Source: Stentor roeselii
Taxonomy: Eukaryota; Ciliophora; Heterotrichea; Heterotrichida; Stentoridae
DNA: 64,000 bases
Assembly: GCA_006503475.1 (NCBI GenBank)
Contig: RSEH01000018.1
Location: forward strand, 62,001 to 126,000
Direction of reading: 5' to 3'
This document shows, piece by piece, positions 10,333-58,992 of the stretch. The first letter of the stretch is position 1. Every line of letters starts with the position of its first letter. A program made the position numbers and the translations under genes. A model generated the notes under the pieces. It did not search any database, was not told the origin of the DNA, and saw only the letters and a list, made by a program, of their open reading frames with translations.

Positions 10333-12447
10333 ATGCAAGATTCTGCCGAATCATCTGAAAATATCATAACTCGATGGGAACATCAAGATCAAAAAAATGT
10401 TCATAACAAAGTCTTGGAATGCTCTAAGGACTTGATGGGAATCTCTAAAAATCGAGTTTGCACTGACATCTTCTGTTTAAGCGTTTTCATTGTTTTGAAT
10501 GCAGGACTTCTAGGCTTGAGTTATTACATATCTTTAACAGGAGATATAAACCGACTGGGCCATGGAAGTGATTTTCGAGGAGACGTTTGTGGAGTTGAAG
10601 GTTTAAAATCACGTGAATTTACTTATTATCCTGATCCTCTTGACCTACTTATTTCATTATGCTTAAAGAAATGCCCGAAAGACGTCGAAAGTGAGTCAAT
10701 CTGCTACTACGACACAGATCAAAAGACAATAATAAAAACTTACCAATGTTGGGATTCCTACCCAACAACTGAATACGGGTTCTACTGTTTCCCTAAAGAA
10801 AAAGAATCCAGAAAAAGAATAATCGACGAGTTCTTCACAAGTGAAAATTTAATCCGAAGAGCTGGAGGTGACTTAATTTCAGTATTTTTCATTCAGGTCT
10901 GGCCTATAGGTTTATTCGGAGTATTAATCAGCATCTGCTACTCAGTAGCTTTCATCATCAGTCTTCCCTTTCCAAGTACTTGAAAATCAGAGGGTCTTGT
11001 ATCCTTCACAATCTTCTCAATAATCCAAAACGCATGTCTTCTTCCATGCATGGCGCTGTTGATTTACTACAATTCTCTCCAGTTCAAATCAAAACTCTGT
11101 GAAAAAAACAATTCAGTGAATCCTGATTACTGCTACAAAACCCCTGAACTCGGTCTTCGAATATTAACAGGAATTGTGGGCTTTAGTTATTTTATTTACT
11201 TGCTTTATTTGGTCTTTCATAGGAAAATATTTTTTTCAGCTTTAGAGATATTTAAAGTCGTATCAGAACCGATAAACAAAGTAAAAAGACTGGTTTGGAT
11301 TCCGGTGGTCTTGGAAGTGATTGGATTGTGTGTACTTCTGGGACTTTACACCCTGATGCTTTATAGTTTTGGAATTGGATTCGTGAAAAAACATAAAAAT
11401 AATGAGGTCCCTGGTGGGGAAGTGAATAAACTTGAATTTAGAAATTCTGATAGACTTATCATGGGATTTATTATTTTTATGTCATTTTGGTGGCTTAGCT
11501 TTTTGATAGGCATCTGCGAGTTCATCGTTGGAGGGGTGGTAGGCTGTTGGTACTTCACAAAGGAAAAATCAGTGATTTTCCACCCTTTATCCCTATCCTT
11601 GAAATACTGTTTTCGTTATCATCTTGGAAGTATTATTCGAGGTTCTTTTTACAACCTTTTCTTGAAATTTCCTAGTTTTTTCTTAGAAATTTTTTATAAA
11701 TTTTTACTTCGGTTCAATAAAAATACTTGTTCTTTGATTTCGGCTTATTTTTGCTGGATTTGTTTGTCTTGTTATCATTTTGGGTTGAAGTATTCAAGTA
11801 GTTCTAGTTTTATTTACTTGGCAGTCTTTGGACTGCCTTATGCTCAGTCATCTCGAGAATCATTTTATTTAAAAAAGAGGAACCAAAGAAGAAGTCTTGG
11901 GTTTTTAGCTGCTCCTTGGCATTGCATGTTTCAAATGAAAATCGCAATCGCTTTACCTGGGTTTATTGCTGTTTATTCTTTTTTGAATTTGAATCAAGGA
12001 GAATTTTTAGGAATTTCTGGAAAACATTTGAGTAGTTTTTTAGCTCCTGCGGTCTTTGTGCTGGTTTTTTGTGTTTTTTTAGGAGAGGTTGTTACTAGTG
12101 CTTTGTATTCGTCTGTTGAAGCGATGGCTTTGTGTGTGGCTGCTGATGAAGAGATGTTTACTGCGGAACAGAGGTTTGTTAAAGGTCAAGTTCAAGAATT
12201 ACTCGATAGTTCCTACTCTGAAACAAGAAAAGCTGAATTCATCCCGGTCGACACTCAAAAAGCAGGCAGATCATATAGATTACCAGTAAACAAACTCGAT
12301 TTCGACTCAAGTTTCAACGCACGTGTATCTCCAATCCCTAAAGCCTTCAGCCCACTCCCAAGCACCCTAAGCCCGATCCCAACAAAGCCATTTCCCAACC
12401 TACCCAAAAATCTAAACCTTTCACATACCTCAAATCAAGGAAATTAA
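10333..12447 (+). CDS. Choline transporter-like protein (SLC44/CTL family)
   Basis: 699 residues after removal of a 15-nt intron at 10976-10990; without that removal the frame stops at a TGA inside the intron. The layout is typical of CTL proteins: a cytosolic N-terminus, a first membrane span (IFCLSVFIVLNAGLLGLSYY), a large Cys-rich luminal or extracellular loop (CGVEG, LCLKKCP, YCFPK), then about nine further hydrophobic spans and a Ser/Pro-rich cytosolic tail. The family transports choline or ethanolamine, or acts in membrane lipid supply; the substrate here is not known. Start context is AATAAATG. Joining the two exons restores FPKGLVSFTIFSIIQNACLL across the splice, inside a membrane helix. 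Confidence 0.85.
10976..10990 (+). other. 15-nt intron in SLC44-type gene
   Basis: GTACTTGAAAATCAG. It begins GTA, ends CAG, has A at position 10 and contains the in-frame TGA that would end the first exon. Removal keeps frame and joins two halves of one membrane protein. Confidence 0.85.
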
Positions 12448-12455
12448 CCTAATAA

Positions 12456-13403
12456 TTAAATCGAAACGAATTGTTGAGCAGAAACCTTATTCTTGGCATC
12501 TGCCAGTCCAAGAGCGATCTGCTGAGCAAGCTCAGCAGGTGTAAAATCATAAGGAACAACAGTAGAGTTCAAATGTTGCGAAGGGTAAATAACGTAAGGA
12601 ATCTGAATTCCTGGGAAGTCAGTCTGCGCGAACTCGATGCTTCTTTCAAAGAACTCAAAAGCTGCGATTTCAGCATATCTCATTGAGGCCTGTAAAGTTT
12701 TATATGAAGCCGCGTCTACTCCTTTAAGTGCCCTGCCAGCGCCCATGACGGCGTGGACTATTACTTGACTTGTCGAGTAACCTAATGTCTTGCAAGCGTT
12801 CACTGCAGAGCCAAAGTCGATCGGGAACTTTAGACTTCCTGTCACTAGCTGAAGCTTGTTGTAAGTCACAAATGGAAGAATGCCTGGCTCTGTCACACTT
12901 GAGAGAATTCCGGATTGCATGCCGGATAAGGTCTGGCCTGAAGAGTTGAATAATGCGTAGTTACCGGAGATCAGGTCCGTTGCACCTACTGATGTCCATC
13001 TTAAGAACTTTGAAGGGGTAAGCTTTGCGATAGTCTTTTTCAACGGAGCTGAGTCATAAAGACCAGACTCCAAAAGCAGTCCAGTAATCAGTCCTCCAGG
13101 CCAATCAACATAAATCTGACCATAGCTAAAAGAAGTCCAAAAGTTATTCAAGTTGGTAGCTGCAACTGACTCTTGTCCCTGAGCCACCTGTCCAACAATC
13201 GCAGCATTTAAAGCCCCAAGTCCGATACCCGTGACCACATCCCATTCCACCTCATCAGGTGGAAGATTTTGAATAAGGCCCATAATGACTCCAGCTTCAT
13301 ACGCTCCCCGTTCACTTCCCCCTCCTAAGGCGAGTACCCGACAGGCACTGTTGAGTGCCTGTGTTATTGTCAAACTAAGCAAAAGTAATATTTTACTCCA
13401 CAT
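12456..13403 (-). CDS. Secreted patatin-like protein lacking catalytic residues
   Basis: 315 residues with a clear signal peptide (WSKILLLLSLTITQALNS). The patatin fold is marked by the oxyanion loop GGGSERGAYEAG at residues 27-38 and by GIGLGALNAA at 59-68, where lipases have G-x-S-x-G. Here the nucleophile serine is Gly61 (codon GGA). The second half of the dyad, normally DG[GA], reads VTGSLKFPID, so the aspartate is also missing. Family members are phospholipases or acyl hydrolases; this one is probably catalytically dead or uses different chemistry. It is G+C richer than its neighbours, as expected of a highly expressed gene. Start context AATAAATG. Confidence 0.85.
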   Translation of the reverse strand: MWSKILLLLSLTITQALNSACRVLALGGGSERGAYEAGVIMGLIQNLPPDEVEWDVVTGIGLGALNAAIVGQVAQGQESVAATNLNNFWTSFSYGQIYVDWPGGLITGLLLESGLYDSAPLKKTIAKLTPSKFLRWTSVGATDLISGNYALFNSSGQTLSGMQSGILSSVTEPGILPFVTYNKLQLVTGSLKFPIDFGSAVNACKTLGYSTSQVIVHAVMGAGRALKGVDAASYKTLQASMRYAEIAAFEFFERSIEFAQTDFPGIQIPYVIYPSQHLNSTVVPYDFTPAELAQQIALGLADAKNKVSAQQFVSI

Positions 13404-13496
13404 TTATTGTTTACTTTGCAAAGAATGGACACTATAAAGACTTCTTTCATCTTTAGTCCTGAGGTTCTAGATAAGTAGGAAAGTTATTTCATATAA

Positions 13497-14642
13497 ATGG
13501 AAGAAGATATTGTTAAGCAGAACTTGCCAGAAATTTATGAATCTATTGTTAAGACTGAAGAGGATGTTGATTTTGCTTTGGTTAAAGAAGATCTTGAAGA
13601 ACTGGTTTGGCTTAAGTTTGATGAGTTAAAGACTGAAGAAGCTATTGTTGCGGTTTGGAAAGTTGCTGATCGATGGGGAGTCTCAGTATTACAGCAAACC
13701 CCTCGTTTCAAAATCTTAAAACTAACAAAAGTAAAAATTTCCATCACGAACTTCATGTACAATATATCCTCCTCTCCAAAAATCAAGCAAATCTGCCAAG
13801 ATTCCCAAAATAAAATCGACGACATGACCTTCTTCCAATGTGCTAAAAACCTTTTATACGCATCATCAGACGAAGATTTTTCATCTCTAATGCAAAGAAT
13901 AGTAGACACCTACAACGAGTTTAAGTCAAACATTACCTCATTTTTCATCCACTTCGACAAAGTACTGAAAAGCGAGATGAACTGCACCTTGTCAAGTATA
14001 ATGGACTCAGTCTTCAACACAAAAGTCCTGAAGCACTTCAGCGAAAAGATGTCTTCAGATGAGAAACTCAAGAAGATCCTCAGTGAATATTCAGAAAAAA
14101 AAGGAATTTCAGCTTCCTCCGGGTACACCATTACTTACACCCACTACCCAAGCGACCACTCTTCTTGGGCAAGAGAAAACATCTACAAAGGACAGATAAA
14201 TGAAGAAGGAAAAAGAGAAGGCTTCGGAAAAATCAATTATTTTGGAGGAGACTCTTATCAAGGACAATGGAAAAATGATAGACCTGAAGGACTCGGCCTT
14301 TATATCTGGAAACTTGGAGGAAGGTATCTTGGAAACTTCGAAAAAGGACTTCCAAATGGAGAAGGTGAAAGAATTTATAACTCTGGAAATTATTTTAAAG
14401 GAAATTTTCTTGCTGGGAAAAAAAATGGACTTGGTGTCATGTGTTTCAAGAATGGAGATGTTTATGATGGAATGTGGGAAGATGACTTCATGCATGGAGA
14501 AGGAAAATACACCTGGGCAACTGGAGATGTTTTCATTGGGAGATTCGTTAAAGATATCAGGGATGGCCCTGGGTGTCTTAATCTTGTGACCCACGAGTCA
14601 CTTCCTGGCACCTGGAAAGATAACTCGAAAAATAATAGTTAG
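13497..14642 (+). CDS. MORN-repeat protein
   Basis: 381 residues; start context CATATAAATG. The N-terminal 220 residues are helical and acidic with no recognised domain. Residues about 228-370 carry about six MORN repeats (YKGQINEEGKREGFG, YQGQWKNDRPEGLG, YLGNFEKGLPNGEG, FKGNFLAGKKNGLG, YDGMWEDDFMHGEG and FIGRFVKDIRDGPG). MORN repeats bind membranes or act as scaffolds in ciliary and cortical structures of protists. A cortical or ciliary role fits a ciliate but is inferred. The gene is 28 nt upstream of the next gene on the same strand. Confidence 0.9.
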   Translation: MEEDIVKQNLPEIYESIVKTEEDVDFALVKEDLEELVWLKFDELKTEEAIVAVWKVADRWGVSVLQQTPRFKILKLTKVKISITNFMYNISSSPKIKQICQDSQNKIDDMTFFQCAKNLLYASSDEDFSSLMQRIVDTYNEFKSNITSFFIHFDKVLKSEMNCTLSSIMDSVFNTKVLKHFSEKMSSDEKLKKILSEYSEKKGISASSGYTITYTHYPSDHSSWARENIYKGQINEEGKREGFGKINYFGGDSYQGQWKNDRPEGLGLYIWKLGGRYLGNFEKGLPNGEGERIYNSGNYFKGNFLAGKKNGLGVMCFKNGDVYDGMWEDDFMHGEGKYTWATGDVFIGRFVKDIRDGPGCLNLVTHESLPGTWKDNSKNNS

Positions 14643-14670
14643 TTTAAAAAGATCTTGAAATAATCTCACT

Positions 14671-17364
14671 ATGGATCAGTTCTTAGGACTCACAAATGAA
14701 GGAAGTGACCTGAGCTGTTTTTTAAACACGGCTTTTCAAGTCTTTTATCATATGAAGATTTTCAATGCTCGTCTCTGTGAGAAGCGAGGTGAAAATGATG
14801 AAAATCATAAGTGCATCGCTTCAGTCTTATCTGAGTTGCTGGAAAAATATGAAAATGAGTTGAAGGGAAAAAAAGAACCGATGATTACTTTTAACCTTCA
14901 ACTGGAACTTGTCAAGGTCTGGGGTGAAAAAGCTTTTGGGATGAAGCAAATGGCTGATACAATGGAAGTGCTTAATTGCTTATTTCTTAGTATTCATCAT
15001 GCCTTTCGAGGAAATTGTTACTCTTCTCAACCTTTCGATGATGATGACTGTGAATGTCTTGTTCACTCTCATATTTTCATGAACTTTCGAAATGTTCTTA
15101 AGTGTAATGATTGTGGAAAGCAAGAAGAAAACTTAACAAATTTACTTATTAATCCTTTTCATACTAACCCCTTCGCTGGTGACATTGTAGCTTTAAAAGC
15201 GAATGAAAATAGTGAATTTCCTTACACTATGCAACATTTAGACCAGTTTCCACGTTATGCAAAAATTCAAAATGAGTCGAAAATCGCTGGAAATTGTGAA
15301 AACTGTCAAAATCCTCGAACTTTATATCAAGAATTAATTAAATCTCCTCGTTTTTTGATTTTTCAGATGATTTGGAAAGATAACTTTTTTCAGAAACTGA
15401 AAAATTTAGAATTATTCGCATCTTTGAAGTTTTCTTTGAATATCAGAGAACTTTTTGAGACGAGCCTTGATGAAAACTTTAATTTTATTGGGTTTATCAT
15501 TAATGCTCCGAATCATTATTATTATATTGCGTGGTCTTGCTCCACATGGTGGGAAGTGAATGACTCAAAAGTAGAAAAAATTGAAAGTTTTAGTAATGTG
15601 ATGATGAAAATTAATCGATTTAGAAGGAAAATTGTTGGAGTTGTTTTTGAAAAAAATTGTGAACCTGAATATCAAATAATTGATGAGCACATGTTGAAAT
15701 CATCTGAAAAATCAATTATTTTTGACCTGTCCTGCAAGAATTGCTCGGAAATTACTGAAGATAAAAAATGTAAAAATTGTGGATGGTCAAGAGCTAAAAG
15801 TTGGATTAAATGGACTTGTCCCAACTGTTTAACCAACAATCGAAAAGACATATGTATAAAATGCAATGAAAAACGTTTTTTTTACCAGGAAAAATGTTCT
15901 TTCTGCAAAAATCTTAAAGATCACTGCATATGCGAACAAAGATTTCCATTCCACTGCAAAAGCTGCACCTCTGAATTACAAATAGAAAAATTTTGTAGTA
16001 ATTGTGCATCAGAAATCATTTTGAAAGAATTTGAATACTATTGCTGCACTTGCAGGTCAAGAAAAAGTAAAGATGACATGATTTGCTTTAACTGCTCTGT
16101 ATTATATTGGACCTGTTTAAATTGCAACATTAAAACTTCAAATGCAATAAAGTGTCCTCAATGCAATTTAAAAAAACATGAGAATATCTGGTACTGTAAA
16201 ACTTGCAAAATATTCAATAAAAAGCTGAAAGATTGTGAAAAATGTTTAAAAAAAGAAAATGAAATTGAATATTGCAACATTTGTTGCTCTGATAAATTTC
16301 CATTTTGCAAATGTGATATAAAAATTGGATGTGTTTTATGTTCTAATGGAATAAGTGGTCCAAATGATCTGATTTGTTTTAGATGTGGAGATCAAGTTAT
16401 TGATAACTTTTGTAATTCATGCCAAGATTTTATACCTAAGCTTTTTTTTCCATGTCGTAAATGTTTTGATGAGAGGTCTGAAGAGTTACCCTTGAAATTA
16501 AGTCTTTCGAAACCGGATGACTGTTTTGTTTGTAGACTGAAAATTAATGATGAAATTTTCCTTTGTTGGGTTTGTGGGAAACCTTTTTCTGGGGAGTTTG
16601 TTTGTGACTGCAACCCGGATAAATCTGTTTGCCAGGCATGTCTTGAAGAGCTCAAGTACTGCTCTAAGTGTAGAAAGTTCTTTTTAGGTTTATACTGTAA
16701 GGGCTGCAAATCGATGAAAGTAGATTTTTTGATTAATGAACTACCTTATAGCCAGATGTTCGACTCAGACTGGGAGTGTTTTAAATGCAACTCTTTCAAT
16801 CGACAAGAAGTCTTATTCTGTGAATACTGTAATCATCCTCAATTAAGTTCATTTTCTGAAACTTATAAATGCAAATTCTGTTTAACGATCTCTCCATACC
16901 CTCTATGTAAAGACTGTCTCTGGATTAATCGATGTTCCAATTGCTCCAAAAAAATATTCTTCACCCAGAGCTACTCCTGTGGAAACTGCGGTAGTTCCTT
17001 AAAAAACTCATTCTGTCCTTCATGCAAGATAATTATTCCAAAAAGCAGAATCCTTTGCAAAACCTGCACAGTCAACATGTCCCTTTGCCCATGTGGTCGA
17101 AAGAAACACCCAAAAAGTCTCCTTTGCAAATACTGCAAGTTAAAAATAACCTACCAAAAAATCATCTGCACCTACTGCAAAAATCAAAAAAATCTCGATA
17201 TTTGTTATTATTGCACAAATGAAATAATAGAAGAAATCTGCGGAAAGTGCAATCGAGAAAACTCTAAAAAAAATAATTATTTCTGTGGAACATGCTCATT
17301 AATTCATCATAAAAAAAGAAATGAAAACAGAGAAACTGATTTTTCTTACTTTGACCTAGACTAG
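14671..17364 (+). CDS. USP-like ubiquitin hydrolase with very long Cys-rich zinc-ribbon tail
   Basis: 897 residues. The N-terminal 310 residues resemble a ubiquitin-specific protease: the Cys box GLTNEGSDLSCFLNTAFQV (Cys16) is close to the USP53/54 form, one CxxC pair lies near residue 147, and a His box NHYYYIAWSCSTWWEVNDSKV is present, so both catalytic residues can be placed. From about residue 350 to the end the chain is an almost uninterrupted series of CxxC knuckles, about forty pairs by eye (CPNC, CIKC, CSFC, CKTC...), as in zinc ribbons or RanBP2-like fingers. Such a tail could bind ubiquitin, RNA or proteins. I have not seen this combination described, but cannot search. Confidence 0.8.
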   Translation: MDQFLGLTNEGSDLSCFLNTAFQVFYHMKIFNARLCEKRGENDENHKCIASVLSELLEKYENELKGKKEPMITFNLQLELVKVWGEKAFGMKQMADTMEVLNCLFLSIHHAFRGNCYSSQPFDDDDCECLVHSHIFMNFRNVLKCNDCGKQEENLTNLLINPFHTNPFAGDIVALKANENSEFPYTMQHLDQFPRYAKIQNESKIAGNCENCQNPRTLYQELIKSPRFLIFQMIWKDNFFQKLKNLELFASLKFSLNIRELFETSLDENFNFIGFIINAPNHYYYIAWSCSTWWEVNDSKVEKIESFSNVMMKINRFRRKIVGVVFEKNCEPEYQIIDEHMLKSSEKSIIFDLSCKNCSEITEDKKCKNCGWSRAKSWIKWTCPNCLTNNRKDICIKCNEKRFFYQEKCSFCKNLKDHCICEQRFPFHCKSCTSELQIEKFCSNCASEIILKEFEYYCCTCRSRKSKDDMICFNCSVLYWTCLNCNIKTSNAIKCPQCNLKKHENIWYCKTCKIFNKKLKDCEKCLKKENEIEYCNICCSDKFPFCKCDIKIGCVLCSNGISGPNDLICFRCGDQVIDNFCNSCQDFIPKLFFPCRKCFDERSEELPLKLSLSKPDDCFVCRLKINDEIFLCWVCGKPFSGEFVCDCNPDKSVCQACLEELKYCSKCRKFFLGLYCKGCKSMKVDFLINELPYSQMFDSDWECFKCNSFNRQEVLFCEYCNHPQLSSFSETYKCKFCLTISPYPLCKDCLWINRCSNCSKKIFFTQSYSCGNCGSSLKNSFCPSCKIIIPKSRILCKTCTVNMSLCPCGRKKHPKSLLCKYCKLKITYQKIICTYCKNQKNLDICYYCTNEIIEEICGKCNRENSKKNNYFCGTCSLIHHKKRNENRETDFSYFDLD

Positions 17365-17375
17365 TCTAACAAATC

Positions 17376-18011
17376 CTACATAATAATATCTTTTCCAATT
17401 AAATATCCATTCTCATAAACAGCTCGCTCGCCCAGCCACCATCTGACAGGCGAGACTTTATTCCTCGGCGGGTACCTCGTTGTCCTGCTGATTTTTCTAC
17501 CTCGAGCTAAAATCCTCATGACTTGATCATGTTCAAATACCTGAACCTTTACTTTTCTTTTTCTTGTCTTCTGTGTCTGGTCGATTTCCATGAATCCTTC
17601 ATCGAAGTTTTCATTCAGATCTTGAATAACTTCATTACCCTCGAAGGAGTCTTCAAAATCGTAGAGGTTGAATGCAGGACTTTCATTCAAATGGTAACTG
17701 GTCCTTGTGTAAGACGGGTTAATGTAAGGACTTTGAGTACCTTGAGGACTTGAAAATGAGGGAAGGGGTGGATTTGATTGATTTTGGATTTCTGATGAGT
17801 TTATTGATTGTGGGTCTAGAGTTGATTGAGTGTTTTCGGTTGATGATATGAAACTTTCACTGAATCTTGAGTCTTGCATCAGGTTTTCTTCAATTAATTT
17901 CTTTTGGATGTTGTTTCGACTGATTGGGGATTACATCATTTCACTTATTGGGTATACCAATGACATCGTTGACTGGTACCCTCCGCAGAATGGGTTTGTA
18001 TAAGCTGCCAT
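17376..18011 (-). CDS. CENP-C-motif kinetochore protein candidate
   Basis: 206 residues after removing a 15-nt intron at 17920-17934. This adds an N-terminal exon starting at 18011 (MAAYTNPFCGGYQSTMSL...) to the frame whose next ATG is at 17879. The C-terminus carries a CENP-C/Mif2-type signature: RKISRTTRYPP..., then VRWWLGERAVYENG. This fits the pattern of basic and Ser residues, an Arg, a Pro and an aromatic-Trp pair that binds the H2A/H2B surface and CENP-A tail in other eukaryotes. The middle is Ser/Asn-rich and disordered, followed by an acidic patch and a basic KTRKRKVKVQV stretch. The cupin domain of CENP-C is absent. Confidence 0.65.
17920..17934 (-). other. 15-nt intron in CENP-C-motif gene
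   Basis: GTAATCCCCAATCAG on the minus strand: GTA start, A at position 10, CAG end, with an in-frame TAA inside. Removal joins a short N-terminal exon, otherwise an orphan 26-codon frame, to the main frame in phase. Confidence 0.8.
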
Positions 18012-18034
18012 TTAATATTTTTGAATAATCCCTC

Positions 18035-18829
18035 CTATGAATATTCTTTATTAATTAACAGTCTTGAGGTAAACTCGCAGGTTGAGGAAAATGAAAAGTA
18101 GGAAGCTTCTACTTGTTCTTTTGATACCGTATAGAAGTCATCAATATAATCATGAATGCTTACTGGAAGAGGAAGTTTCACTTGGCTCACATTGCTAAAA
18201 TAAGAGCAAAATTCCAGTTCCTTCGAATGAATCATCCAACACCTGCTTATACCTTACTCAAAAGCACTAAAAATTTTAAAAATTCTGTATTTTTCAAAAG
18301 TTGCACAGATTTTTAAGTAGTTAGGAAAGGGGGTAGTCACAAGTTTTAAATATTTTTTTTGAACGATTTGAAATCTCTTCCAAATTTTTAAAGTTTTAAT
18401 CTTTTTGCAAGTCCAAAAACGTTTTGATTGCGATTTAAAATGAAAAAACTGAGAATGAAGCTGTTTTTTGAATATTTTTAAAGAATTTGCAAGTTTTTTT
18501 CGAGATTCCACTGAAATTAAAGATTTTTTTATTAGAGAGATTTTCCCGGTTTGACTAATGTTTCGTCTTTTAGGGTATTTCGGGAGTTTTGAAGGTCTTT
18601 TGCTATCAAGAAACAAACTTCTCATTAAAAAAAACGAGAATTTTGTGAGTTTCGTTGTGTTGGAGTTGAAAACTTTTCGTAAGCTCAAACATAAAATAAT
18701 TCCAGTCAGATGCAAGTCAGGTTGATTGGCGAGGTTATCTTGACTTCCAGAAAGTTCACTAGTGAACCGATGAGATTGTTTTAAGGTTTTCTTGATTCTG
18801 ATGGAATCATGAGACAAATTTTTCCTCAT
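18035..18829 (-). CDS. Basic protein of unknown function
   Basis: 259 residues once the 15-nt intron at 18243-18257 is removed; this fuses a 191-codon and a 66-codon frame (...KIFSAFE + CWMIHSKELEF...). Start context AATAAATG. The first 180 residues are very Lys-, Phe- and Ser-rich (for example KSQSKRFWTCKKIKTLKIWKR), predicting a basic helical, possibly nucleic-acid- or membrane-surface-binding protein. The last 70 residues are acidic and neutral. No known domain is recognised. Confidence 0.65.
18243..18257 (-). other. 15-nt intron in basic-protein gene
   Basis: GTAAGGTATAAGCAG on the minus strand. It has the GTA start, A10 and CAG end, and an in-frame TAA immediately at the donor. Removal joins two adjacent frames in phase. 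Confidence 0.8.
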
Positions 18830-20517: not shown

Positions 20518-20519
20518 AT

Positions 20520-32462: not shown

Positions 32463-32556
32463 TTTATTAGATTGGAAATAATGAGTGAGTTTTGGCTGGA
32501 TGGATTTGGGGTTTAATGTTTTTTTAAGGATTATTTGAGAGGATTGAGTATTTATA

Positions 32557-32675
32557 GAAGAAAATCAGAATTTTTTGTAGAAGAAAATCAGAATTTTATT
32601 GAAGAAAATCAGAATTTTATTGAAGAAAATCAGAATTTTATTGGAGAAAATCAGAATTTTATTGAATGAAATCAG
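32557..32675 (+). repeat. 21-nt tandem repeat, about 5.6 copies
   Basis: Units start at 32557, 32580, 32601, 32622, 32643 and 32664 (partial). Each contains GAAAATCAGAATTTTATT or a close variant; units two to four are identical and the first is 23 nt. The array sits in the gap between the divergent genes at 32462 (minus) and 32714 (plus). Confidence 0.9.
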
Positions 32676-32713
32676 TCTTTTTCTTTAACAGAATAATTTT
32701 ACTAAGAAATATT

Positions 32714-33826
32714 ATGGCAGTACTTTTACAAACTTCTTTAGGTGATATAGTTATAGACCTCTACACAAGCCATAGTCCTAAAACATGCAAGAACTTTTTA
32801 AAGCTCTGCAAGATAAAACATTATAACAACTCGTTGTTTTCTCCTATTCAAAAAGACTTTGTTGTATCAATCGTGCCTCCTGGTCGTGATGTTTCGATAT
32901 TTGGGTATTTTATAGATAGTCTTCTTGAAGGTCCTGATCAGAATTTCTTTGAAGATGAACTTTCGAGCGAGTTGCGTCATGATAGACCTGGAATAGTTTC
33001 AATGTCTAACCGAGGTCCAGATATGAATGCTTCAAGTGTACTTTTCAAATAGTTTTTCATCACGCTTTCTCATTCTCTTGACTCTCTGAACAAGAAACAC
33101 TCAATATTTGGGATTGTTGAGGAAGGTCTTCATATATTAACTTCAATCAATTCAGCTATTTGTGACTCTTCAGGACGGCCTTACCGAGACATCCGCATTA
33201 AACACACTTATATACTTGATGACCCTTTCGAAGACTTACCTGGCTTGGTTGTTCCTCCTTCGCCTGAGGTTCTCAGAGAAAGTGAAAGGCTCTTAGACGA
33301 CGAACAGATCGACGACCAGGTCACTGAAGAAATGGTTCAGGAAAAGATTAAAGAACATGAAGCAAAGATCAGGGCTGTTACTTTAGAATTGATTGGAGAC
33401 ATTCCTGATGCTGATGTCAAACCACCTGAAAATGTGGCTTTTGTTTGCAAGTTGCACCCTGTCACTAATGATCAGGACTTGTTTTTGTTGTTTTCAAGGT
33501 TTGGACCTATCAACTCTTGTCAGGTCATTCGAGACTTTAAGACTGGACAGAGCTTGCAGTATGCTTTTATTGAGTTTCAGAATGTTAGGGACTGCGAAGA
33601 AGCGGTACTTAAAATGGATGGTGTCCTGGTTGACAGAAAACGGATAAAAGTAGATTTTTCTCAATCAGTCTCTAAAATCTGGAACAAACACCGACAAGGC
33701 CGAAGACATTTAGAGTCGAAACAAGGTATCGAAATAAAAAAAACCTTATACGGAGCCAAATCCGAACAAGACAGACACAAGCTAGTCTTCGAGTTCCAAG
33801 ACCTTCCAAAAAAACGAGGAACTTAA
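32714..33826 (+). CDS. PPIL4: Cyclophilin-RRM protein, PPIL4 orthologue
   Basis: 365 residues after removal of a 15-nt intron at 33038-33052. The start at 32714 (MAVLLQTSLGDIVIDLYTSHSPK) matches the conserved beginning of PPIL4; an ATG at 32666 lies in the last copy of the upstream tandem repeat and would add 16 unlikely residues. Cyclophilin domain about 1-165 (RPGIVSMSNRGPDMNASS, joined by splicing to FFITLSHSLDSL). The linker DDPFEDLPGL is diagnostic of PPIL4. The RRM has RNP2 (VAFVCKL) and RNP1 (YAFIEF). A spliceosome-associated peptidyl-prolyl isomerase of the nucleus is expected. The catalytic Arg region is diverged (VPPGRDVSIFGYF), so isomerase activity is uncertain. Confidence 0.92.
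33038..33052 (+). other. 15-nt intron in PPIL4
   Basis: GTACTTTTCAAATAG: GTA start, A at position 10, TAG end (also the in-frame stop). Removal restores the conserved cyclophilin core NASSFFITLSHSLDSLN, the strongest single proof of 15-nt introns in this window. Confidence 0.95.
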
Positions 33827-37463: not shown

Positions 37464-39389
37464 TTAATCAAATTTCCGAACTTTCTTTATCAAACTTTCA
37501 ATTATACCAGTGTATCGATTTTCCAGGTTTTTTCTTCTTAGCTTTAAAGTAGGAGAAATCATTTCTTCTGAAATCCAAGATTCTGCCTCCAAATGAATCG
37601 CTTTTACTTTTTCGATTTCTGTTAAACCTGCCAGGATCATTTTTTCGTTGATATCGGAAAAAACTGCTGAAATCACTGAAGGCGACTGGCAGAGTTCTTG
37701 AAATGCGACATCGAATGGAGCGAGTTTTTCTCTTAACAGTCGCTCATTCGGTACTATGACTGCAACGACTAAGTCCTCTCTGATAGTAGCGAAGATAGAC
37801 TCTACAAATCTGCTATCTCTACAAACCAATTCAATCTTTTGAATAGAAATCGCTTTCTGATTGTTTAAAATGAACAAAGAATGCAAGCAATCAATAAAGG
37901 TAAATGAAAGATTCGATTTATTCAAAAGAAAAACATCTCCAGTCGCATACCATCCATCAAAATCAACAGGTCTCAATTCTTTATAATACCCTGAAAAGAG
38001 TTTCTGACTTTTCACATAAAGTTCTCCATAGACCTTGCCTTCCAATCCTAAAATTTCAAATTCCTTGATTTTTCTCAATTTAAAAGAATACCCTGCAAGA
38101 GGTCCTCCTAAGTGAAAGGCCGAGTTATCTCCAGGTTCAGAGCACATGCAAGTGACAAGAGTTTCAATCGATCCATACCCTTGAAGAATCTCGCAAGACA
38201 AGACGAGTCTAAGGTACTCGATGACGTCTTTTCGATATAAAGTCGATCCAGATATCATGAGTCTCATTTTCCCTCCAAGTGTCTGACGCACTTTTTTAAA
38301 GACCAGTTTATCATAAACCATACTTTTCAAATTTCCTGACTTTTGATAAGAACTTCTCTTTGACTGAAGAGCTTTATTAAATAGAGCTTTTGAAGTTTTA
38401 GAATTTTTTAATAACTTTTCTTGGACCCCGTCGTAGATTTTTTCAAGAAGCTTGGAAATGCCTAGAGTGAGAGTTGGTTTAAAGGACTTGATATCGTCGA
38501 TGAACTCGATTGAATTTATATCTGTGAAAGCGATTGAAGCTCCTGAGACGAGAATTTTATATAAAATTGCACGTTCCCACATTAAGGCGAGAGGAACATA
38601 TGACAAGTAAATATCTCGAGTTGCCAGGTTTAACCCAGGAATATCCGCTCCAAGAATAGAAGAAAGAAAACTCTTATTTGAAATGATGCAGATTTTTATA
38701 TCACCCGTCACACCACTGGTCAATGACAAGGTAAACACTTCGGAGTACCTATTCGAGTTTTCCTTTCTGTGACTCTTGCTGCAGTAGTAGTCTAATTTCA
38801 CCTTTGCCTGCTCAGCTTGATGAAGTTCTTGAAAGTCAGGCTTTTGCATTAAAAAGACTTGAGAAAGATGAGTTTTTCTTTCTTTGTTTAAAGTTAGTAA
38901 CTTTAAAAGATTTGCTCGATCACAGCAGATAAATTCTACTTCAAGTCTTCGAATCATCTCAGCTAAGTTGTCAGAAGAACTGTTTTCAACCAAGCCGACT
39001 GAAGTGATTCCTAGTTTCGAGCACGCGATGTCAAATATAAGCCATTCTGGCTTGTTTTTAGAAAGAATTCCACAAAGGACTAAACCTTGACTGTTAGGTT
39101 TCAATCTTTGACTCATGAGGAAAGATGAACATTTCTCTACTTTTTTCATCACTGAGCGAAAAGTAAGCCATCTGTGTCCTTCGTTTAAATAATGTGTCTT
39201 GCTCATTATTTTTTTTGTTGGGATTTCTTCAGAGACGGACCTGAGTGATTTTTACTTTATTAGAGAGTAAAGAGTTTCATGCGTTATTTGAGGGATTTCT
39301 TGAGGACTTTTGAAAATACTGGAAAAGTCTTCGGTTTCTGAGTTTTCTACTTCTGTTGAGTAAATGTGTTTGCTTTTGTGTCCTCCCAT
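37464..39389 (-). CDS. Diverged long-chain acyl-CoA synthetase with myristoyl-type N-terminus
   Basis: 636 residues after removing a 15-nt intron at 39241-39255, which adds the first exon from 39389 (MGGHKSKHIYS...). MGGHKS is a good N-myristoylation site. Adenylate-forming family motifs: the P-loop LTSGVTGDIKI (TSGTTG-PKG in the family), LQGYGSIET, GWYATGDVF, and near the end PTLKLRRKNLENRY, which carries the catalytic Lys region of ACSLs. The normally strict IDRKK motif reads IDCLHSLF, so a nucleotide-contacting Arg is missing. Expected role: activation of long-chain fatty acids; activity is doubtful. The join gives a normal ACSL N-terminus (ETLYSLIKSVSEEIP...). Confidence 0.85.
39241..39255 (-). 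other. 15-nt intron in acyl-CoA synthetase gene
   Basis: GTAAAAATCACTCAG on the minus strand. GTA start, A at position 10, CAG end, in-frame TAA inside. Removal adds a 46-codon N-terminal exon in phase. Confidence 0.85.
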
Positions 39390-51106: not shown

Positions 51107-51202
51107 TGCGGGAAAATAATTATAGTAAAAATTTACGCTCTTTACTAAAATTAATAATAGTGCAGCAATCAAAAATCCAACTTTCAGTTCTCATGATAAA
51201 AA

Positions 51203-52396
51203 ATGCGCAAATGGTTAATCCTAGCGTCTTATTCAGCTTCATCTTTTTTAAGTGGAGCGGCTTGGGCGACATTGATTCCGATTCCATCTGTGGGAATGTC
51301 TTACTTTGGAATAACTGACTGGGAACTAACTCTTTATAGTTACTCGTTTTTCTTGGCGTGTGTTCCTCTTTCTTTGCCTTCGAACTGGATGGTGGCGAGG
51401 TCTTTGCATTTCTCGCTTCACTTGATCTGGGCAACGTCTTTGGTTGGGTGCTGGGTTCGGGTCTTGGCAGGAAGGAATTTCTGGATTTCTTTTGCTGGAC
51501 AATTGGTTTTGGCTTCAGGATGCATGCTTATGCTTACAGCTTGCTCGACTACTGCTTCTATTTGGTTTCCTTCTAAACAGGCTTTGATGGCAACGTCGGT
51601 GGGCGCATCTGCTAACTTCGTAGGGATCGGCTTCAGTTATCTCTTGATGAGTTTATGGCCTGACATCCGCCTGGCCCTTTGGGGCCAGGCCTTATTCGCA
51701 AGTTTCTTCTGGGTATTCAACTTCTCTATAATCAAGTCAGACCCGATCCAAGTCGATCGAAACTTTCAAAGATTCAAAGATGACTGGATGATTTGTTTAA
51801 AAAATAAAGACCTGATGATATTAGCAAGTTTATCAGCATGTGGACTAGCAACAAACTACGCAATAGCCTCAGTGATCGGTTTTTTACTAATTCAACAAGG
51901 TTTCAGCACTGCTGAGTCAGGCATCGTTGGATTCATTTACGCGATTTCCGGACTTCTCGGAGGACTTGCTGCAAGTTTCGTCGCTGAAGGACAAGGACAG
52001 GTAAAAAAGATTTTATTTTTTATCTTAATTTCTGCAATTACATCAAGTGCAATTTTTAGTGCTTTGATTAAGTTTAAATTTGCAAGTTTTGTACTTGCTG
52101 CTGTTTTCGGAGCTAGTATCACAGGAAGTTTACCTCTTTGCATCAGGATCTGCATTGAAAGTGAGAAGAGAATCAATGAAAGTATTCCTACTAATTTGAT
52201 TTATTTCATTGCTCAGGTCTTTTCTTGTGTTTTTGTTTATCCGATACAGTTCTGGCAAGATTGGACTGGATTGACTGGCATGTGGGCTGGTTGTGTGTTG
52301 ATTGTCTGTAGTTTTTCAATGATTATTTTCTTGTTGAAGAAAAGAAATGATGTGAAGAATGACAGTGAATTGTTCCAAGTATTGAGGAAAGAATAA
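51203..52396 (+). CDS. MFS transporter, SLC49/FLVCR-like, copy 1
   Basis: 397 residues with 12 predicted membrane helices. It begins MRKWLILASYSASSFLSGAAW, shares the block VFGASITGSLPL-IR-CIES with three neighbours on the opposite strand, and is the most divergent of the four. The sequence pattern (Arg-Trp start, WF, N-GT-like segment NFVGIGFSY) resembles the SLC49/FLVCR branch of the major facilitator superfamily. Animal members move haem, choline or ethanolamine; the substrate here is unknown. It has a shorter tail than copies 2-4. Divergent to the unknown gene at 51106. Confidence 0.85.
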   Translation: MRKWLILASYSASSFLSGAAWATLIPIPSVGMSYFGITDWELTLYSYSFFLACVPLSLPSNWMVARSLHFSLHLIWATSLVGCWVRVLAGRNFWISFAGQLVLASGCMLMLTACSTTASIWFPSKQALMATSVGASANFVGIGFSYLLMSLWPDIRLALWGQALFASFFWVFNFSIIKSDPIQVDRNFQRFKDDWMICLKNKDLMILASLSACGLATNYAIASVIGFLLIQQGFSTAESGIVGFIYAISGLLGGLAASFVAEGQGQVKKILFFILISAITSSAIFSALIKFKFASFVLAAVFGASITGSLPLCIRICIESEKRINESIPTNLIYFIAQVFSCVFVYPIQFWQDWTGLTGMWAGCVLIVCSFSMIIFLLKKRNDVKNDSELFQVLRKE

Positions 52397-52498
52397 AGTT
52401 TAGTTGTATAAATTTTTTTGGAAAGATTTTTAGGTGAGATAAATTTCTCATGTTTATCGATGAAGCCTATTTAAGTATTAACTAGTTATCCATTAGGA

Positions 52499-53740
52499 TC
52501 ACATCAACTGCTGACCAATGCTTGGACTTCCCCAATTTTTTTCATTATTTCCTAAGTCCTTATTGTGCGAGTTGAACCCTTCCTTGCCAAACCCACTTCC
52601 CCTGACCTTCCTGGTGAAAATAAGCAAAAATGAGTAACTCAAAAGAATAAAAAGCGACGCAATCCAAAGTCCAGACTGTCCAGAAACCAAAAAAAAGTAC
52701 TGAATAGGATACGTCAAGAAACTTCCAAAAATCTGCCCAAAAAGGTAAATCAAGTTTGTCGGGATACTTTCATGAACATCATTCATAAACTCAATGCACG
52801 CCCTGATGCCCAAAGGAAGACTTCCAGTGATACTCGCTCCAAACACAGCAGAGGCCAAATAATTAACATACTGCACATGAAGCAAAGCACTAAAAGCGAT
52901 ACTAGACAAAATCGACAAAACCATAAAAACCCGAAAAGAACTCTTCGTCGATTTCCTTACTTCAGCAAGATAAGTTGCAAAAAGTCCTCCAATAAGTCCA
53001 GAAATCGTGATAACAAAACCCATAAGTCCAGTTTCAAACAGTCCAAACCCTTGTTGCTCTAAAAGTATTCCGATAATCGAGGTGATTCCATAATTCGCGG
53101 ATAAAACAATTGATATACTGATAACCAATGCCATTAATGTGGAATTTTTCATTGATTTCACAAGTTCTTGTTTAAATTCAATCTTCTCTCCACTTGTTTT
53201 TTCCTTCTTTCCGACAACGAGATTGAAAATGAAAAAAATTGAAGAGAGAATTGCCTGTGCCCATAAAACTCGAGGAATGTCAGGGATTAAAGCCATTACG
53301 ATGAAAGTGACTCCAACTCCGACGAAGTTCCCAGCGGCTCCGATTGAAGTCACGAGGATCCACTGGCTCTCTGGGAACCATTTTAATGCGGTAGTCGAAC
53401 AAGCTGTTAGAACTGGCATGTTGGCGAAGGCGATTATCACTTGTCCTACGCAAGAAATCCAGAAATTACGACCTGCGATTACTCTCACCCAACAACCTAT
53501 CATCGTTGTCGTCCAGATAAAGTGGAATGACCAGTATAAGGACTTTGCTACCATCCAGTTTGAGATTTGAGCGAAAAATACACTGATTATTGTGAAGATG
53601 TAAGCGTAGAGAGTTAGCTCTGCCTCGTTTATGTTGTAGTATGAGGTGCCTTCATCGGGGATTGGGATTAAAACTGCCCAGGTAGCTCCGCTTAGAAAGG
53701 CAGCTACCGAATATGATGTAAGAATCAACCATTTCCGCAT
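52499..53740 (-). CDS. MFS transporter, SLC49/FLVCR-like, copy 2
   Basis: 413 residues, 12 membrane helices. MRKWLILTSYSVAAFLSGATW start, GTSYYNINEAELTLYAY, RVIAGRNFW and VFGASITGSLPLGIRACIE mark it as a close relative of copies 3 and 4. The central loop is basic (VVGKKEKTSGEKIEFKQEL), as usual in MFS. The C-terminal tail (FNSHNKDLGNNEKNWG...) is cytosolic and polar. DNA of the VFGASITGSLPLGIRA block is nearly identical to copy 3. Complete and apparently functional. Confidence 0.9.
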   Translation of the reverse strand: MRKWLILTSYSVAAFLSGATWAVLIPIPDEGTSYYNINEAELTLYAYIFTIISVFFAQISNWMVAKSLYWSFHFIWTTTMIGCWVRVIAGRNFWISCVGQVIIAFANMPVLTACSTTALKWFPESQWILVTSIGAAGNFVGVGVTFIVMALIPDIPRVLWAQAILSSIFFIFNLVVGKKEKTSGEKIEFKQELVKSMKNSTLMALVISISIVLSANYGITSIIGILLEQQGFGLFETGLMGFVITISGLIGGLFATYLAEVRKSTKSSFRVFMVLSILSSIAFSALLHVQYVNYLASAVFGASITGSLPLGIRACIEFMNDVHESIPTNLIYLFGQIFGSFLTYPIQYFFLVSGQSGLWIASLFILLSYSFLLIFTRKVRGSGFGKEGFNSHNKDLGNNEKNWGSPSIGQQLM

Positions 53741-54296
53741 TTAGCAGCTGGAGAAAAATTAAAAGTGGAAGAAATGTTAGAAATAATTTTTTATGTAAAA
53801 GATGTTTTCAGGGTTTTATAAAGCGATGAATTAGAAACTAGTGTTCTATTATATTTTCAAGAATGAGACAAAATTATAAAGGACTTAAATAAATATGAAG
53901 AACTACCTCGAGACAAGAACTAATTATTAAAACTTTTAAACTATTAAGTTAAACCTATTATCATTTTCTACTAATCATCCAATTTATGCTAAATCAGAAA
54001 ATTCTTGAACTAAGCTAAACTGATCTAGAACCCTCAAAAATTTGATTCAAAAGAAAGAAACTTCTCTCAAATATAAATAAATATAAATATCAAAGACATT
54101 TATCACAATTTATATCATTAACAAAGGCAGAATGATAAATCGATTAACTAAAGCAATTTATGAGATTAATTTAATTATATATGATAACTAAATTGTAATT
54201 TATGATTGTTAAAGTTAATATAAAAATTCATATGGATTATAATTCGTAGATTGAATGCAACTAATTGAATTTTCTAAATTATCCTAAACCCATTCT
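53741..54296. other. AT-rich spacer between MFS copies
   Basis: About 555 nt, very AT-rich, between copies 2 and 3 of the transporter array. No coding-like frame. A possible site of the recombination that made the array, but no boundary repeat is visible by eye. Confidence 0.5.
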
Positions 54297-55519
54297 CTAG
54301 TTCCAATCCTCATCATGTTCAACTTTATTCTCCACAAGTTCCTTTCCACTCAAGAAGCTTTCCTTATAAAACCCTTTTCCCTGAAACCTTCTAGTAAACA
54401 AAAGCAAATAAGCGTAACTAACAAGTATAAAAAACGACCCTACCCACAGTCCAGACAGTCCAGAGACAAAATAAAAGTACTGTATGGGATACGTAAGAAT
54501 CGTGCTAAACACTTGTGAAAACAAATAAATCAAGTTAGTCGGTACACTTTCATTCACATCCGCCATAAACTCAATGCAAGCCCTGATGCCCAAAGGAAGA
54601 CTTCCAGTGATACTAGCTCCAAACACCGCAGAGGCGATATAATTCAAATAATCCACATGAATTAACGCACTTAAAGCAATAGACGACAAAATAGTCAAAA
54701 CCATAAAAACCCTCAAAGAGCTTTTTGTAGACTTTTTCACATCAGCTAAATAAGTAGCAGGTATCGCTCCAATCATGCCAGAACCCGTCACCACAAAGCC
54801 CATCAGCCCAGTAGTAAACTCCCCGAAGCCCTGCTGTTCAAGAAGTATTCCAATAATCGATCCATAAGCAAAATAAACAGACATAGGTATTGACACAAAA
54901 ACAACAAGTATCATTAAAGTTTTATTTTTTAAAGATTTTTTCATTTCTTCCTTTAATTCAATTTTTTCTCCGCTGGTTTTTTCTTTTTTCCCGATAATCA
55001 GATTAAAAATGAAAAAGACTGAAGAAACAACGGCCTGATAAAGAAAAGCGAGAGGGACATCTTGAGCGAAGCACATGAATAAAAAACTAAACCCGGTGCC
55101 TACGAAGTTAGAAGCAGCTGCGATTGAAGTGACGAGAATTACTTGACTCGGTGGGAACCACCGAGTGGCGACACTGGAGCAACCAATGAGAACAGGCATG
55201 TTGCTTAGGGAGACGATGAATTGCCCGATGAAGGAAATCCAGAAATTTCGACCTGCGAGGACTCTGACTATGCAACCGATTGTAAGATTTATCCAATGAA
55301 GTGCATTGACCAGTAAAGGGACTTCGCTATCATCCAGTTCGCAACTGGTGCTAGAGACACGCTGACTACCAGGAAAATGTAAGAGTATAGGGTTAGCTCT
55401 GCCTCGTTTATTCTGAAATAAGAGGTTCCCAGTTCTGGAATTGGGATTAATGTTGCACAGGCTGCACCGACGATGAAGGAGGATACTGAATATGATGTAA
55501 GAATCAGCCATTTTCTCAT
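54297..55519 (-). pseudogene. MFS transporter copy 3 with one frameshift
   Basis: The start at 55519 (MRKWLILTSYSVSSFIVGAA) and the rest from about 55293 (INLTIGCIVRVLAGRNFW... to FTRRFQGKGFYKES) are in different phases. Copies 2 and 4 read MHFIW or FHFIW here; copy 3 reads ATTGG where ATTTGG is expected, so one T is missing around 55293-55297. The remainder is intact and close to copies 2 and 4. It is either a young pseudogene or a sequence error. About 407 residues if read as the family. Confidence 0.8.
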
Positions 55520-55763
55520 TTTATTGAATGGATTTATTAGTTTGTAATAAACAATGGAATGTGGATTGAATGGGCTATTAAAAGTATGAGAAGGACTAAA
55601 TAATAATTTAATTTTTTTCAATTAAATTAAAAAAAATTTGTTAGAGATTTCATGGGAAGATAAAGTTTTGATTTATTAGATTCTCTTTAGTGAAATTTAT
55701 TCTTTGAAATAGATCATCATTTGAATTTAATCTAATCATTAATTTTATATAAGCTAGAAGAGC

Positions 55764-57032
55764 TTATGAATGAATTTCAAATGATTCTTCGATAAACCGA
55801 TCTCGGGTTCCAGTAACATCATCATCATATGCTTCTTTATTTTCTACAAGTTCTTTTCCATTAAAAAAACTTTCTTTGTTAAACCCATCTCCCTGCACTC
55901 TTCTTGTAAAATAAAGTAAGTAAGCGTAGCTCAAAAGTACGAAAAAAGACCCAACCCACAGTCCAGACTGCCCAGAAACAATAAAAAAGTACTGTATCGG
56001 GTAAGTCAAAATACTGCTGAAAACCTGCGCACACAAATAAATCAAGTTCGTCGGGATACTTTCATGCACATCATCCATAAACTCGATACAAGCTCTAATC
56101 CCCAAAGGCAGACTACCAGTGATACTTGCTCCAAAAAGTGCAGAAACAATATAATTAACATAATCCACATGCAGCAATGCACTAAAAGCAATAGACGATA
56201 AAATAGTAAAAACCATAAAAATCCTAAAAGAACTCTTTGTAGACTTCCTCACCTCAGCCAAATAAGTCGCAAAAATAGCTCCAATCATTCCAGAACCCGT
56301 GATAACAAATCCCATAAGTCCAGTGCTGAAAACTCCAAAACCCTGCTGTTCTAAAAGAATGCCAATAATGGAAGTAACCGCATAATTAACCGACAAAACC
56401 ATTGAAACACTGACAACAAGTATCATAAGTGTTTTATTTTTCAAAGAAAAAATCAATTCCTCTTTAAAATCAATGATCTCTCCTCCACTCTCATCTTTTT
56501 TCCCAACAATCAAATTAAAAAAGAAAAAAACAGAAGCGATAATCGCCTGAGTGATCAAAGCAAGTGGAACATCAGGTAAAAAGCTCATAAAAATAAAACT
56601 AAACCCGATTCCTACAAAGTTAGCAGCGGCTCCAATAGAAGTAGCGAGAACCAACTGACGAGAAGGAAACCACTGAGCAGCAACGCAAGAGCAAGCAGTA
56701 AGAACAGGCATGTTGCTGAATGAAACAACTACTTGCCCTGCAAAGGAAATCCAGAAGTTTTGACCTGCGACGACTCTTATCCAACAGCCGATTATTATCG
56801 TTAACCAGATAAAGTGCATCGACTTGTAAAGAGACTTCGCAACCATCCAGTTAGAGACTTGTCCGAAAAATACGCTGATTATGGCGAAGGTGTAAGAATA
56901 AAGAGTAAGTTCTGCCTCGTTTATGTTGTAATATGATGTTCCTTCTTCTGGAATCACTATCAATGTCGCCCAAGCTGCTCCACCTAGAAAGGATGCTACT
57001 GAATATGAGGTAAGAATCAGCCATTTTCGCAT
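55764..57032 (-). CDS. MFS transporter, SLC49/FLVCR-like, copy 4
   Basis: 422 residues, 12 membrane helices, start MRKWLILTSYSVASFLGGAAW. Shares the same blocks as copies 2 and 3 (INEAELTLYSY, VAGQNFWISFAG, SALFGASITGSLPLGIRACIE). The tail is acidic (GKELVENKEAYDDDVTGTRDRF), like that of copy 3 (GKELVENKVEHDED), suggesting copies 3 and 4 are sisters. The substrate of this local expansion is unknown. The upstream gene ends 37 nt away. Confidence 0.9.
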   Translation of the reverse strand: MRKWLILTSYSVASFLGGAAWATLIVIPEEGTSYYNINEAELTLYSYTFAIISVFFGQVSNWMVAKSLYKSMHFIWLTIIIGCWIRVVAGQNFWISFAGQVVVSFSNMPVLTACSCVAAQWFPSRQLVLATSIGAAANFVGIGFSFIFMSFLPDVPLALITQAIIASVFFFFNLIVGKKDESGGEIIDFKEELIFSLKNKTLMILVVSVSMVLSVNYAVTSIIGILLEQQGFGVFSTGLMGFVITGSGMIGAIFATYLAEVRKSTKSSFRIFMVFTILSSIAFSALLHVDYVNYIVSALFGASITGSLPLGIRACIEFMDDVHESIPTNLIYLCAQVFSSILTYPIQYFFIVSGQSGLWVGSFFVLLSYAYLLYFTRRVQGDGFNKESFFNGKELVENKEAYDDDVTGTRDRFIEESFEIHS

Positions 57033-57069
57033 TTAGTTTTAAAAGTTTCGAGGAATTTTAGATTATTAA

Positions 57070-58992
57070 CTAGTCTAATGTTATCTCGTCGCTTGTTTGA
57101 TCGAAACTCTTGAAATCGCTTAGGTCTTTTGAATCTAGATCTGAATATTTTGGACTTAAGGAGGCTGGAGCTAGTCCTGACATCCCTGCAGGGTCTGATT
57201 AAGAATTACGGAAATATTTCATATAGCCGACTCCGCTGGAAATCAATAATTCTATGACCCACTCTGATTTAACCCCTCGTAAACTATCATCCTGCATCTC
57301 AAATAACTGACTAGCCTGAATTTGATCAACACCCGAATCACATTCCGAAACAACTTCCCAAAACTCTTCAAAGTTCAAAGTATCCCTATTTTGTAAAAGT
57401 TGAGCAATGGCAGCAACAGTCAAATCTCTAAACTTTTCATAAGCTTCTAAAATAACAGACAAAAAAGTTGATTTATCAATTCTGAACTTACAAAGCTGAA
57501 TATTATCTGCATGAGTAGTCAAAGAAAGCATGGACTTAAGGTAATTTCTTGAAGAATTTGCTAAAAAGCTATTCAAATCCGAATCTTGTTCTGAAGTGAC
57601 TGAAAAATCAATAAAGTTCAAGATAGTTGAATGATAGTCTCTATTTGGCAGTTTAAAAATATTGCATCCTATTTTTTTTGACTTGTAAACAGAGTAAAAC
57701 ATTAGAAATTCGTTGAATGAGAGAGAAGATGGGCAAAGCTTTGGCAAAATGAAAGATGTCAGAACTGGGTCTTTGAAACGTTTGTGAATGTATTCGAAGA
57801 TTTGGATTAATGTAGCTTTTTTATCGAAGTTTACTTGGAATGATTGCTTTGATGGTGTCACTGATCTGATTGGACTTTGACTTAAATTTGAGCTTCTTGT
57901 TGGGGTTAGTGATCTTATTGGACTTTTACTTGATTTGGTTATTTGCTGAAGCTTTTCGTAGTTTTTTAGCATCTTTTCTGTGTTTTTTAAAAGTTTGTCG
58001 AAGTAGCTGAATAGTTTGCAGAAATATATTGAGAATGGGAGGGTGAGGTAACCGCTATCTGAGAGTCCTAAAAGTTTTTTCATTATGTCGATGGTTTGGT
58101 TGCTTTTTAATTGATATATCACTTGTATCAAGTCTTTTATTTGATGCTGTCCAAGTTTATCATTCACGAACTCAATGAAAAATTCACTAAATTCTTTTGG
58201 TTTTTTATATTCTTTAACATCTTGTTGGTCAATTTTTGTCTTGACTTGCATCATTTCTTCAAAGAGATCAATAATTTCATTCAACTCGAAATGTCTTGCT
58301 GCAAACTGTGGCAAGTCTTCTCTATTGATGGGGTCCAGATCAAGTAAAAATATTTGAAAGCGATTTTGACTCATTTTTTTGAACTTCTCTATAACTGAAG
58401 CACTTTGAAGTGATGGAGATTTATCCTTCAAAATTTCATCTAACTTTCCATTTCGGGTAGCTGAATTTTTTTCTTTTATTGATAGTAAAGGTTTGACTGG
58501 GCAAATAGTAACTGACTTTTTGAAGTTCTTTCTTCGAAAAGTTAGAAACTGAGGACGTAAAACTGGTTTAAAAGTAAGACTCCAAGATTCAGAACTGATT
58601 ATCAGTGGTTCATTCAAATCAAGTAATTTTTTCACCTCGAAATCTTGATTATCATGAAGTTCAAAAGTTTGACTGACAATAACCCCATCACTAAAATCAT
58701 TTTCCATGATAACCCTTGCATTAACCTCTTCGACCACCTTCAAAGACTTTTGATTTTCTACCCATTTTCCTTCTAAACCTTTCAAAATAAAGAAGCATGA
58801 TCTCAAATCAACAATCTTCCCCTTCTTACAAGTCTTCAAAAAAACATTTTCTAAACTTTTCAAATCCTTTTCTTTAACCTTCCAGTTACTTTTCTTCCAA
58901 TCCAAATAATTTTCACTTCCAGAATTCAAAACCTTACAATTTCCAGGTTTCTTATTAAAAACATTACTTTCCTGAGATTTACAGCAGCCCAT
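57070..58992 (-). CDS. Second MGC myristoyl-type protein, helical
   Basis: 635 residues after removal of a 15-nt intron at 57195-57209, which replaces the end YFRNS with YFHPAGMSGLAPASLSPKYSD... and adds 38 codons. It starts MGCCKSQES, a strong myristoylation and dual-palmitoylation pattern, in a TTATAAATG context. A beta-rich part (about 90-160) is followed by a basic linker and a long helical domain (PSLSFNEFLMFYSVYK, DTLNFEEFWEVVSECDSG) whose NFEEF-type helices resemble degenerate EF-hands. A Ser-Pro-Arg linker repeats SPIRSLTPTRSS/SPIRSVTPSKQS, likely phosphorylation sites. Possible membrane-bound calcium-type regulator; inference only. Confidence 0.75.
57195..57209 (-). other. 15-nt intron near the end of the MGC gene
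   Basis: GTAATTCTTAATCAG on the minus strand: GTA, A at position 10, CAG, in-frame TAA inside. Removal joins the main frame to an otherwise orphan 37-codon frame in phase. Confidence 0.8.

Follow-up and report, generated by a model that had tools for sequence, protein, structure and literature searches.

Can six stop codons, each alone in an otherwise open reading frame, be the visible trace of introns only 15 nucleotides (nt) long? The question is raised by the 64-kb window analysed here (the whole stretch of DNA, 64,000 nt), in which an earlier note had placed six 15-mers of the pattern GTA...A10...YAG whose excision would restore or extend a protein. Read directly from the sequence, all six stand at the positions and on the strands given for them. 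Each begins with GTA and carries an adenine at position 10 (A10), and the 3′ end is CAG in five and TAG in one. Left unspliced, each site presents a single stop, inside the 15-mer, and has one phase in which both flanking frames are open, so that excision links the two frames at all six. We consider it very likely that these 15-mers represent the heterotrich (Stentor) kind of U2-type spliceosomal intron, with a length fixed at 15 nt. The note's assignment to Stentor-like spliceosomal introns is supported by frame rescue specific to 15 nt, by insertions relative to homologous proteins and by a full set of major small nuclear RNA (snRNA) genes.

Chance was assessed on 264 kb, the window together with positions 1-200000 of contig C391, which belongs to the same genome. 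Each in-frame stop with at least 20 open codons upstream (n=6895) was scored as rescued when an L-mer of the form GTA-A(L-5)-YAG covered it, at least 25 codons were open after removal and the coding score was positive on both sides. Such rescue occurred 16 times at L=15, the six sites all being among the 16, against 0, 0, 0, 0, 1, 1 and 0 times at the control lengths of 9, 12, 18, 21, 24, 27 and 30 nt; a weak member of the 16 is C391:142606, with 27 and 33 codons. When only GT-AG ends were required, the count was 28 at L=15 against 9, 10, 13, 15, 13, 22 and 17 at the control lengths. A gene finder given one fixed length per run, again with GT-AG ends only and the motif not imposed, returned 15 introns at 15 nt, 13 of them with A10 and 11 with adenine at both positions 3 and 10 (A3 and A10), compared with both adenines in 7 of 94 introns at the 24 other lengths between 9 and 33 nt (Fisher p 8.6e-8). 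The fixed-15 run recovered five of the six sites and missed 57195, and the run at 16 nt gave three candidates, one with the motif. Among 14 tallied 15-nt introns, position 3 is A in 12 and G in two.

Homologous proteins demand exact removal of the intron in the three genes compared, PPIL4, a dual-specificity phosphatase and ALG11. The PPIL4 gene (cyclophilin and RRM) spans 32666..33826 on the + strand, with a possible start at 32714, the point from which it matches human PPIL4. Its intron GTACTTTTCAAATAG (33038..33052, +) is in phase 0, and the in-frame stop is the TAG 3′ splice site itself. Removal raises the match to human PPIL4 from 343.1 bits with read-through to 352.9, and that to PF00160 from 109.0 to 118.6 bits; read as protein, the intron yields VLFKX, a five-residue insertion aligned to nothing in human PPIL4. 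PPIL4 is itself a spliceosome-associated protein. On C391, the 15-nt intron GTGAGTTTTAGATAG at 7633-7647 (-), with G3 but A10, interrupts the cysteine codon of HCFAGKSRS, the HC-x5-R motif of the phosphatase (DSPc 100.3 bits spliced versus 81.9), and that at 109961-109975 (+) interrupts the cysteine codon of HPYCNAGGGG in ALG11 (250.3 bits spliced versus 235.8). In a sliding-deletion test, the PPIL4 gene and the phosphatase gene were each shortened by every possible stretch of 3-24 nt in multiples of three, and the products were rescored against the human proteins. For either gene a deletion of 15 nt scored highest, and the top-scoring positions fell within a few bases of the predicted introns. 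These checked junctions, two of which interrupt cysteine codons, could be used as controls for gene prediction.

A search of the assembly (44,391,514 bases in 522 contigs) matched the major snRNAs as single genes, U6 at 97.1, U2 at 142.6, U1 at 84.9, U5 at 79.1 and U4 at 76.9 bits, and these hold the canonical recognition sequences ACTTACCT, GTAGTA, GCCTTTTAC and ACAGAGA. We infer that the 15-mers are removed at the RNA level and that A10 is the branch point. The simplest route would be ordinary two-step splicing, as proposed for S. coeruleus in PMC9505925. The 5′ GUA would be recognised by U1 and by the ACAGAGA box of U6, the branch adenosine would be position 10 with the 3′ YAG five nucleotides further on, and splicing would release a lariat with a loop of about 10 nt and a tail of 5 nt.

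Several observations weigh against this account. Without frame context, the bare motif occurs 48 times at L=15, where the other lengths except 16 have a mean of 31.1 and a standard deviation of 7.8 (z 2.2); dividing motif counts into sense and antisense gave no clean contrast, since codon structure dominates there as it does in the bare counts. A crude and noisy frame scan with 90-nt flanks recovered none of the six sites. Free to choose its length, the gene finder preferred 57 nt in the gene holding 33038 and 48 nt in that holding 10976, and of the six sites kept 15 nt at 17920 alone, the other three being unreported; its lengths were mixed, with 15 nt in 5 of 20 introns. A pattern built from the commonest S. 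coeruleus intron matched the genome 11 times, with a length of 15 nt in six cases; a clear coding frame surrounded one of the five 15-nt matches inspected, and the matches were too AT-rich to judge. In the sliding deletions, the exact GT-AG window scored 857 in PPIL4, one point under the local plateau best of 858, and 256 in the phosphatase against a plateau best of 261, the reference chain there having Ser for Cys. Finally, the support for site 57195 consists of a 40-codon extension.

Fifteen being divisible by three, each site amounts to a lone in-frame stop in a continuous frame, and stop read-through was therefore tested as a rival. According to this explanation the 15-mers would be normal coding sequence in which the stop is either reassigned or read through. 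Since no 15-nt intron shifts the frame, every one of the six cases does resemble one in-frame stop, and stop read-through or reassignment has been reported in other heterotrichs. However, all three stops are found inside the 15-mers and all three terminate genes as well (TAA 44, TAG 36 and TGA 16 among 96 open reading frames of at least 250 amino acids), so the host code is the standard one. The rescue is moreover specific to GTA-A10-YAG 15-mers, and read-through would add five residues absent from homologues and ruin the cysteine codon of the phosphatase; we regard it as very improbable. Even less credence is due to the proposal that the 15-mers are germline-eliminated DNA, or assembly errors, retained in the assembly and removed at the DNA level. 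Ciliates do excise DNA from genes, and length alone does not separate the options, but the boundaries here are GT-AG with A10, the flanks of the six sites have no common terminal repeat, and length and motif agree with the Stentor spliceosomal introns published in PMC9505925. Chance, whereby stops fall by accident in GTA-A10-YAG 15-mers, is favoured by the bare motif being no more than mildly in excess and may yet account for individual sites, 57195 foremost, but is refuted for the set by the 16 rescues against 0-1 per control length in coding context and by the share of introns with A3 and A10, and is extremely unlikely.

Spliceosomal introns of 15 nt are an already published kind, known from S. 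coeruleus, in which 8173 of 8806 introns are 15 nt long and 8005 have A10 according to PMC9505925. The likeness to that report extends to the GU-AG ends, the conserved GUA, the standard code and the five major snRNAs. The two differ in the 16-nt class, 7% of introns in S. coeruleus against the three candidates here, and in intron AU content, which is 142 of 210 letters or 68% over the 14 tallied introns against 75.6% there (both PMC9505925). They also differ in codon composition. GC content at codon positions 1, 2 and 3 is 43.3, 32.3 and 35.5% in this genome, whereas PMC10384029 gives 42.8, 32.8 and 22.7 for S. coeruleus and 44.3, 33.3 and 34.2 for Stentor roeselii, the third position thus lying at 35.5% here, 22.7% in S. 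coeruleus and 34.2% in S. roeselii. Codon composition, which is the sole basis for naming a species, points to a Stentor close to S. roeselii, and together with the standard stops it agrees with the Stentor-like host proposed in the earlier note. The published lower size limit for spliceosomal introns would be confirmed in a genome with a codon composition unlike that of S. coeruleus. Another heterotrich, Blepharisma stoltei, has introns mostly of 15 and 16 bp (PMC9942806); Blepharisma reads UGA as tryptophan, whereas here TGA ends 16 of the 96 long reading frames and also supplies the stop within the 10976 intron. Paramecium resembles the present case in its very short spliceosomal introns, translatable ones being under surveillance, but according to PMC11334263 their mean length is 23-28 bp and lengths divisible by three are under-represented, whereas the dominant length here is a multiple of three. 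No paper on S. roeselii introns was found in the literature searched, most subscription journals lying outside its coverage.

All six 15-mers of the earlier note hold, although its list seems incomplete, as a probable seventh intron that it missed, GTATTTTATAGATAG, lies in the PPIL4 gene at 32905..32919 (+). It is in phase 2 and has no in-frame stop, which makes it invisible to frame reading. One of eight GT-AG 15-mers in the gene, it coincides with the second peak of the sliding deletions, and without it the score against human PPIL4 climbs from 352.9 to 359.8 bits, SIFG then being aligned with SIFG. The Pfam gain is a point against it, at just 0.5 bit (PF00160 from 120.5 to 121.0). Over the 264 kb, stop-free 15-mers with the motif inside open reading frames show no excess, unlike the stop-bearing ones, with 24 against 35, 32, 15, 25, 36, 26 and 28 for seven further lengths divisible by three. 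Judged by eye, a number of these 24 are plainly coding sequence, as in HRDLKPEN, kinesin VRCRPLS, patatin GAYEAG and an IQ motif. About 18 extra stop-free 15-mers would be expected under uniform phases and unselected stops (P 0.0002 by Poisson, 0.003 with the observed spread), an expectation resting on 14 introns, the gene-finder picks plus the earlier note's sixth, all of them visible only via a stop. Phase-0 introns among the 16 frame rescues end in TAG in six of six cases, in a method that sees stop-bearing introns only. There is here a hint that 15-nt introns tend to contain a stop that is in frame for the phase of the intron itself.

The same genome holds candidates for a second splicing machinery. 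Rfam models gave one full-length match each for U6atac (C206:178445-178552, +; 37.7 bits against a cut-off of 33, genome-wide E 1.7e-6), U11 (C391:24585-24697, -; 38.3 bits, just under the cut-off of 39, E 3.5e-4) and U12 (C513:33061-33189, -; 36.4 bits, well under the cut-off of 53, E 2.3e-4). U4atac had no match in the genome, in a search that was silent in every control too. The U12 candidate agrees with the consensus at 26 of its first 30 positions, AUGAGUAAGGAAAAUA included, and has an Sm-like site, AUUUUUG; the fit to the model is poor in its 3′ half. In the predicted fold of U11 (z -2.2), the 5′ domain is multi-branched, AAUUUUUGA is left unpaired and the 3′ part forms a hairpin; z is -1.8 for U12 and -0.5 for U6atac, the latter no better than shuffles. 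The heptamer CCCATAT, which has 10 occurrences on both strands of the 264 kb, stands 49-58 bases upstream of U1, U2, U6, U6atac, U11 and U12, six of the eight snRNA genes, and 51-55 bases upstream of the three minor candidates; the corresponding element is CCCATACC at U4 and just CCCTTAAA at U5. The location of U11 on C391, a contig bearing 15-nt introns, speaks against contamination for this candidate. The flanks of U12 and U6atac contain ordinary coding frames, and GC content in the U6atac flank is 41% against 35% in the sample.

U11 and U6atac share an A-to-C change beside a GG, with CAAUCGGG for AAAAAGGG in U11 and CAACGGAGAGA for GAAAGGAGAGA in U6atac. In both RNAs this GG is expected to base-pair with the 5′ splice site. 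Given the common change, the U12-type 5′ splice site would be shifted and read RUAUCCG rather than RUAUCCU, and U12-type introns of the pattern RTATCCG...TTCCTTAAC would then be expected. Strict criteria found no U12-type intron in about 340 kb and none in the control, which is weak evidence either way. Compared with a U12-type minor spliceosome as known, then, candidate genes occur here but neither a U4atac match nor a U12-type intron came from the searches made. On sequence grounds we think it likely that two spliceosomes operate in this organism, a major one on the 15-nt introns together with a minor one of U12 type (U11, U12 and U6atac) that has the shifted RUAUCCG site. The minor spliceosome would not be the machine for the 15-nt introns, because their ends are GUA-YAG. 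None of the four minor snRNAs was found in S. coeruleus according to PMC9505925, in contrast to the three candidates here, and in Alveolata PMC10639083 detected no minor introns. If the candidates hold, minor splicing has been kept in a lineage listed as lacking it, and the minimum size of a U12-type intron beside major ones of 15 nt becomes a question.

The remaining five sites in the window lie in genes of varied character. Intron GTACTTGAAAATCAG (10976..10990, +; phase 1, in-frame TGA) separates exons 10333-10975 and 10991-12447 of a choline-transporter-like gene (10333..12447, +; CTL1 7wwb_A). Its PF04515 match is confined to exon 2, and the junction is therefore not tested by homology. 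The same applies to the AMP-binding enzyme gene (37464..39389, -; exons 39389-39256 and 39240-37464), where PF00501 falls in exon 2 only and the intron is GTAAAAATCACTCAG (39241..39255, -; phase 2, in-frame TAA). Two neighbouring minus-strand genes belong to no family known to us. One (17376..18011; exons 18011-17935 and 17919-17376) has no Pfam match and holds GTAATCCCCAATCAG (17920..17934, -), and the other (18035..18829; exons 18829-18258 and 18242-18035) has no Pfam match in its first exon and holds GTAAGGTATAAGCAG (18243..18257, -); both introns are in phase 2 with an in-frame TAA. Intron GTAATTCTTAATCAG (57195..57209, -; phase 1, in-frame TAA) lies in a further gene of no known family (57070..58992, -; exons 58992-57210 and 57194-57070) whose first exon has no Pfam match, and is the least certain of the six, as its second exon has just 40 codons and a homologue is lacking. 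Outside long frames, two intron-like 15-mers, GTAATAATTATTCAG and GTAAAAATCATTCAG, stand head to tail at 528-557 (-) of the window. A tandem repeat of 21 nt in 5.9 copies (32551-32675) extends into the start region of the PPIL4 gene, and another, of 71 nt in two copies that are 95% alike, occupies 59729-59872.

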